From Haloterrigena sp. H1 (GTDB lineage: Archaea > Halobacteriota > Halobacteria > Halobacteriales > Natrialbaceae), in assembly GCF_005938085.1 (NCBI RefSeq), contig NZ_SMZK01000001.1, forward strand, positions 1,860,001 to 1,924,000: a DNA stretch of 64,000 nt, read 5' to 3'. Each line of letters starts with the position of its first letter. The stretch's first letter is position 1. This document shows positions 47,144-47,932 of this stretch, one piece after another. The notes under the pieces are model-generated. The model saw only the letters and a list, made by a program, of their open reading frames with translations, did not search any database and was not told the origin of the DNA. A program made the translations under genes and the position numbers.

Positions 47144-47731
47144 TCAACCGCGTTTCTCGTCGAGTTTCGATCGGAGTTGTCGTGCGATGACCTCGTCGTC
47201 GAGCAGCGAATCGGGGCCGGTGAAGTGAACGACCGGGCCGTTCTCGACGCGGAGCCACTCGTCGCTGCCGGTGCCGGCGAGCGTTACGGTCCGTCGCGAC
47301 GCGGGGAGTCCGTTCGCACGTCGCCGGTCGGTCAGTTCGCGAACACTCGCGACCTCGAGTGCGGTCTCGTCGATCGGTGAGACGACGAGGTCGTACCGTG
47401 ACAGCGACGGATCGAGCGTTCGCATCGCATCACGGTAACGGTGAGCGGCGTCACAGGCTCGCTGGGCATCGGCGTGGGTGTCGAATCGTGCGTCCGTGAC
47501 CGGCGCGGGTCGAATCCCCGACTCGCGACAGGAGACGACGAAGCCACCGTCGGTGCTTCGAAGGGCAGCAACGGTGTCTCGCGCCGCCCTGATCGTCTCG
47601 ACTGGAGTCGCGTACTCCTCGCTCTTGGCTGTCGTCTCGCGGGTCACGGGCAATGCACCATCGGGTTCGAACCGTCGGCTTGCCTCGTTTTCGCGACGAC
47701 ACGACCGCTGTCTCCGGATCGTCTCAGACAC
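47144..47731 (-). CDS. Haloarchaeal DUF7551/7552-like protein, putative iron-regulated
   Basis: A 195-residue protein of unknown function. ATPVETIRAARDTVAALRSTDGGFVVSCRESGIRPAPVTDARFDTHADAQRACDAAHRYRDAMRTLDPSLSRYDLVVSP resembles haloarchaeal DUF7551/DUF7552 domains (association from memory). The C-terminal part ends WLRVENGPVVHFTGPDSLLDDEVIARQLRSKLDEKRG. The first 30-35 residues are basic and look less conserved, so the true start could be inside. Forty bases upstream is a perfect 16-base palindrome of the DtxR/SirR type overlapping a TATA box, so expression may respond to iron or manganese. Confidence 0.7.
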   Translation of the reverse strand: MSETIRRQRSCRRENEASRRFEPDGALPVTRETTAKSEEYATPVETIRAARDTVAALRSTDGGFVVSCRESGIRPAPVTDARFDTHADAQRACDAAHRYRDAMRTLDPSLSRYDLVVSPIDETALEVASVRELTDRRRANGLPASRRTVTLAGTGSDEWLRVENGPVVHFTGPDSLLDDEVIARQLRSKLDEKRG

Positions 47732-47769
47732 GCCGGTTCCGTATTCCCTGTCAGCGTTCCCGCCATATT

Positions 47770-47785
47770 TTTAGGCAGGCCTAAA
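47770..47785. promoter_or_regulatory. DtxR/SirR-type palindromic operator
   Basis: TTTAGGCAGGCCTAAA has perfect 7-base arms (TTTAGGC / GCCTAAA) around two bases, the form bound by DtxR-family metal-dependent repressors (SirR/Idr type) in archaea. It lies about 40 bases upstream of the ATG at 47731 and overlaps a minus-strand TATA-like AAAAATATGG (47763-47772). Metal-dependent repression of that gene is the likely role. A TATATTGAT on the same strand could serve as a second promoter. Confidence 0.7.
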
Positions 47786-47932
47786 TCAATATAGGCATTC
47801 TGGTTTCGGCTAGCCACAGCGCTCACAAACAGCCATCACCACGAAAAAACCACAGTCAGTTCGGCAGTCAATGTGCCGTCGACGGAAGCCGATCACTGTA
47901 TGACTATTGATAGAAATTGCAAAATCCGACGG

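Follow-up and report, generated by a model that had tools for sequence, protein, structure and literature searches.

The window, the whole 64,000-nucleotide stretch analysed here (G000:C1:1860001-1924000), carries a solitary gene for a short-type DUF7552 protein, flanked by VNG_1110C-like and Usp genes. The locus comprises the following features, with the evidence for each in brackets.

47144..47647, reverse strand: short-type DUF7552 coding sequence as revised here, 167 aa from a GTG start, stop codon included (alignment, domains)
47147..47377, reverse strand: conserved C-terminal half, NGLP..TVT...EWLR.EN.P.VH...DDE...RQL (domain search, relatives' alignment)
47378..47596, reverse strand: DUF7552 domain, PF24422 (profile match)
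47648..47769, reverse strand: 5' leader, about 120 nt (orthologue alignment, RNA folding)
47770..47785, no strand assigned: predicted DtxR-type operator palindrome TTTAGGC-AG-GCCTAAA (sequence, motif counts, conservation in 5 Natrinema orthologues)
47788..47793, reverse strand: TATA-like element TATATT (sequence; invariant in 5 orthologues)
47770..47803, reverse strand: 34-bp promoter block, a phylogenetic footprint (orthologue comparison)

The gene had previously been drawn too long, as a 195-aa model starting from GTG 47731. We rejected this model because the orthologue in locus L069 carries in-frame stops in the additional stretch. The start at GTG 47647 was supported by the orthologue alignment and by the third-position bias of the changes. 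The leader was aligned without gaps across the orthologues, showed no codon-position bias and, when folded, gave no unusual RNA structure (z 0.49), and it is therefore probably non-coding. A 40-codon open reading frame (47647-47766, ATG at 47766) is present at constant length in all five orthologues and overlaps the GTG start (GTGA). It was rejected as a coding sequence because changes were spread evenly over its codon positions (11/16/9; the real gene of that pair gave 6/15/46).

The protein matched DUF7552 with an E-value of 9e-25 (87.1 bits; gathering cut-off, 27). The earlier note had described the gene as DUF7551/7552-like; the DUF7552 half of that description held, and no match to DUF7551 (PF24420) was found in this protein at E-values up to 1. 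Conservation among the relatives extends to the C-terminal half (about 75 aa), which matches no Pfam model. The structural model was confident for the DUF7552 half only, the C-terminal half being of low confidence, and a fold search with it returned no significant match. Searches of the sequences of solved structures with the DUF7552 and DUF7551 family profiles likewise returned nothing significant, and a search for the two families by name found no papers in the literature collection covered. Few invariant residues of the metal-ligand type, and no obvious metal-binding cluster, were seen in the alignment. The product is probably a small, soluble cytoplasmic protein.

The perfect palindrome TTTAGGCAGGCCTAAA reported by the earlier note was confirmed at 47770-47785. 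It was the sole match in the window to TTTAGGYNNRCCTAAA at up to two mismatches (0.05 expected). The TATA-like element, which the palindrome had been thought to overlap, instead abuts it 2 bases upstream, so that the predicted operator lies in the promoter, beside this element and near the presumed transcription start. In the five Natrinema orthologues, CGAAACCAGAATGCCTATATTGA and the palindrome are kept as an almost invariant block. The 34-bp block showed 0-2 differences between orthologues, and the 42 bases just upstream of it showed 14-24 differences in the more distant pairs. Because the upstream neighbour VNG_1110C lies on the same strand as the DUF7552 gene, the site most likely serves the DUF7552 gene only. 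Of the four orthologue loci retrieved, all have VNG_1110C beside the gene and three have Usp.

A genome search for further copies, as proposed in the earlier note, yielded eight perfect copies of TTTAGGCNNGCCTAAA. With two mismatches allowed, the count was 21 vs 10 for the controls, so that noise accounts for part of the looser matches. The exact Y/R form TTTAGGYNNRCCTAAA occurred 12 times, and its reversed control did not occur. Across 29 genomes of the genus, TTTAGGYNNRCCTAAA was present in 6-20 copies per genome and the reversed control in 0-1; the summed counts were about 355 and 3, respectively. Judged by this distribution, the TTTAGGYNNRCCTAAA-type palindrome is a genome-wide regulatory site.

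Several genes of this genome are immediately preceded by a perfect or one-mismatch site, namely those for a PF01497 binding protein (C2:250.9 kb), a DUF5059-plastocyanin protein (C2:252.2 kb), an Fe3+-type binding protein, SBP_bac_6 (C1:2635.8 kb), and an ABC ATPase with a TOBE domain (C1:977.6 kb), and two sites lie just before a second DUF7552 gene (C1:147.7 kb); the gene starts at these loci are based on open reading frames. This recurrence before metal-uptake genes was beyond chance. Some further sites precede genes without a clear iron link. The Dps/ferritin gene (C1:1055 kb) was dropped as a target because the site lies behind that gene, not before it. The cluster at C1:2634 kb (L019:4390-6857) contains LPG_synthase_TM, RGP-like and SBP_bac_6 genes with several palindromes; its LPG_synthase_TM gene belongs to PF03706, which we take to be linked to UPF0104. 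HVO_1859 (called UPF0104 family) was up 11.6-fold in iron-starved Haloferax (PMC11349517), an induction consistent with the PF03706 gene of this cluster as a putative orthologue. Further, a near-identical gene stretch with a one-mismatch site was observed on two contigs (L021 and L022; C1:2971961 and C8:22963), representing either a duplication or assembly redundancy.

The second DUF7552 gene (C1:147 kb, L017:2999-4719) encodes a fusion with DUF7551 and has a DUF7260 gene after it, and the two palindromes before it are 36 bp apart. Among 53 full-length DUF7552-DUF7551 genes, 44 had a site (up to two mismatches) no more than 300 nt from the domain start, whereas the reversed motif gave 0/53 and shuffles gave 0; several of the remaining genes had sites elsewhere in the locus. 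Many had two sites 34-36 bp apart enclosing a TATA-like element, e.g., CTTATCA. On annotated plasmids of Halobacterium, Haladaptatus, Halobellus and Halosolutus, full-length relatives have genes for ABC transporters or iron permeases, and for NAD(P)/FAD oxidoreductases, in their vicinity. The full-length gene of Halorientalis litorea is preceded by two sites, and its neighbours include no iron-transport or oxidoreductase genes. The DUF7551 domain of the C1:147 kb protein (L017:3796-4719, model ma4c808e531df) showed a weak whole-domain likeness to the H-NOX, BcsD and TRAPP folds (Foldseek vs an H-NOX/TRAPP-like fold: E 0.012, prob 0.98), and structural alignments fell in the middling range (Z 6.2-6.6 over about 150 residues, rmsd about 4.6-5.4). 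The DUF7551 family has an invariant Cys122-His123. At the place in its alignment that we take to correspond to the H-NOX haem ligand there is no conserved histidine, and we therefore do not claim haem binding.

DUF7552 was found in 83 of the 125 genomes of the family. Short-type relatives beyond the closest orthologues share 44-56% identity with the window protein, and their genes mostly follow a site directly or occupy the second position of an operon led by a site-headed PF01497 gene. The latter arrangement, in which the PF01497 gene encodes a siderophore-type binding lipoprotein and the palindromes stand at the operon head, was found in several other genera, frequently with an FAD oxidoreductase downstream of the short-type gene. 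In two Halorientalis loci (L110 and L111), a PF01325 DtxR-family regulator is encoded close downstream of the operon. All 17 genome-contig loci, including those of Natrinema, had a site directly before the gene or at the operon head. At one locus (L109), about 1.2 kb separates the binding protein gene from the short-type gene, so operon membership there is not certain. Another locus (L082) carries a decayed copy with an internal stop and no site.

The TTAGG-N4-CCTAA palindromic core is present in the 47770-47785 site, and the core TTAGGTTAGCCTAA, found verbatim in relatives, is the beginning of the published DtxR/IdeR consensus TTAGGTTAGCCTAACCTAA. Two clear DtxR-family proteins are encoded in the genome, a 228-aa FeoA-domain protein (C1:1748552) and a 142-aa protein (C1:967085), one of which shares homology with IdeR and DtxR along most of its sequence. 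Both observations agree with the earlier assignment of the palindrome to the DtxR type. Autoregulation of the two DtxR genes was rejected, as no good site lies near either of them.

We consider it likely that the palindrome, whose conservation, regulon and operon context are evident at the sequence level, serves as the operator for a metal-activated repressor of the DtxR family and that the gene encodes a metal-repressed accessory factor for the use of ferric siderophores. With ample Fe2+ (or Mn2+) in the cytoplasm, the repressor would sit between the TATA element and the transcription start and block the gene; upon starvation it would leave, and the gene would be expressed together with the other members of the iron-uptake regulon. 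The protein would then most likely assist a step after import, e.g., by freeing iron from the ferric siderophore or passing it on. Repressor binding, the direction of the response and the identity of the metal are predictions of this scheme, as is the biochemical role, its weakest step. Because the small DUF7552 protein of Natrinema is encoded behind a switch of the DtxR type, and its gene shares an operon with a siderophore-type import protein in other haloarchaea, it most likely acts in iron starvation and aids the use of imported iron. Haem, cobalamin and F420-type compounds are also ligands of PF01497 proteins, and the near-match in NCBIfam is an F420-0 binding protein, below cut-off; the siderophore is therefore a ligand that we infer. 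More speculatively, and rather doubtfully, DUF7552 and DUF7552-DUF7551 proteins could form a previously unrecognised haloarchaeal cytoplasmic ferric-siderophore module that frees iron with the neighbouring FAD oxidoreductase, DUF7551 being an H-NOX/TRAPP-like ligand-binding domain without the usual haem histidine.

The same operator could instead serve a regulon for which manganese is the main signal, or one that senses both metals by way of two regulators, with the gene acting in manganese homeostasis. The best NCBIfam match of the 228-aa regulator is indeed the manganese regulator MntR, below cut-off, and its PDB matches include Mn-sensing as well as Fe-sensing members. However, the genes behind the sites encode siderophore-type and Fe3+-type ABC systems, and a non-exhaustive search found no Mn transporter among the neighbours examined; we regard this reading as improbable. 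Slightly less probable still is control of the same iron genes by a regulator of another family: DtxR binding is predicted, and 16-bp TTTAGG palindromes could serve other winged-helix dimers, but the core is identical to the DtxR/IdeR consensus, a DtxR-family gene lies beside the operon and the targets are iron-transport genes. That the palindrome arose by chance and has no function deserves almost no credence. Perfect palindromes do occur by chance and the window holds a single site; this reading is nevertheless already contradicted by the comparative data, namely the enrichment in genome and genus, the promoter footprint in five orthologues and the site before most relatives. The metal-responsive DtxR-type operator proposed in the earlier note is supported, at the level of prediction, by the site type, its recurrence before iron-transport genes, promoter conservation, the PF01497 operon of other genera and the DtxR-family regulators encoded in the genome and beside that operon.

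The predicted DtxR-family operator shares the TTAGG-NNNN-CCTAA core with actinobacterial DtxR/IdeR operators, which have a 14-base identity with some relatives' sites and likewise precede metal-uptake genes. Unlike them, it is a 16-bp TTTAGG-N4-CCTAAA palindrome, and the relatives often have two palindromes spaced 34-36 bp apart, with an archaeal TATA element between them. The primary papers on haloarchaeal regulons are reportedly Martinez Pastor 2024 and Leyn and Rodionov 2015. The candidate regulators belong to the same family, in the same class of organisms, as those of the iron networks of Halobacterium (Idr1/Idr2) and Haloferax (Idr/SirR/TroR), and siderophore-type ABC genes of Haloferax are induced upon iron starvation (PMC11349517). 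The PF01497 gene that is the operon partner in several genera corresponds to FecB/FhuD-FecCD-FecE ferric-siderophore ABC systems (PF01497, PF01032), unlike the solitary setting of the window gene. The window protein has the DUF7552 domain and its gene has an operator in common with the full-length relatives, but it lacks DUF7551 and has a different conserved C-terminal half.

Two protein families without known function that are widespread in haloarchaea would thus be tied to iron uptake, a link that draws on the operator, promoter conservation and operon context. The handling of iron in archaea after siderophore import is poorly known, and concrete genes, sites and partners are now at hand for its study.
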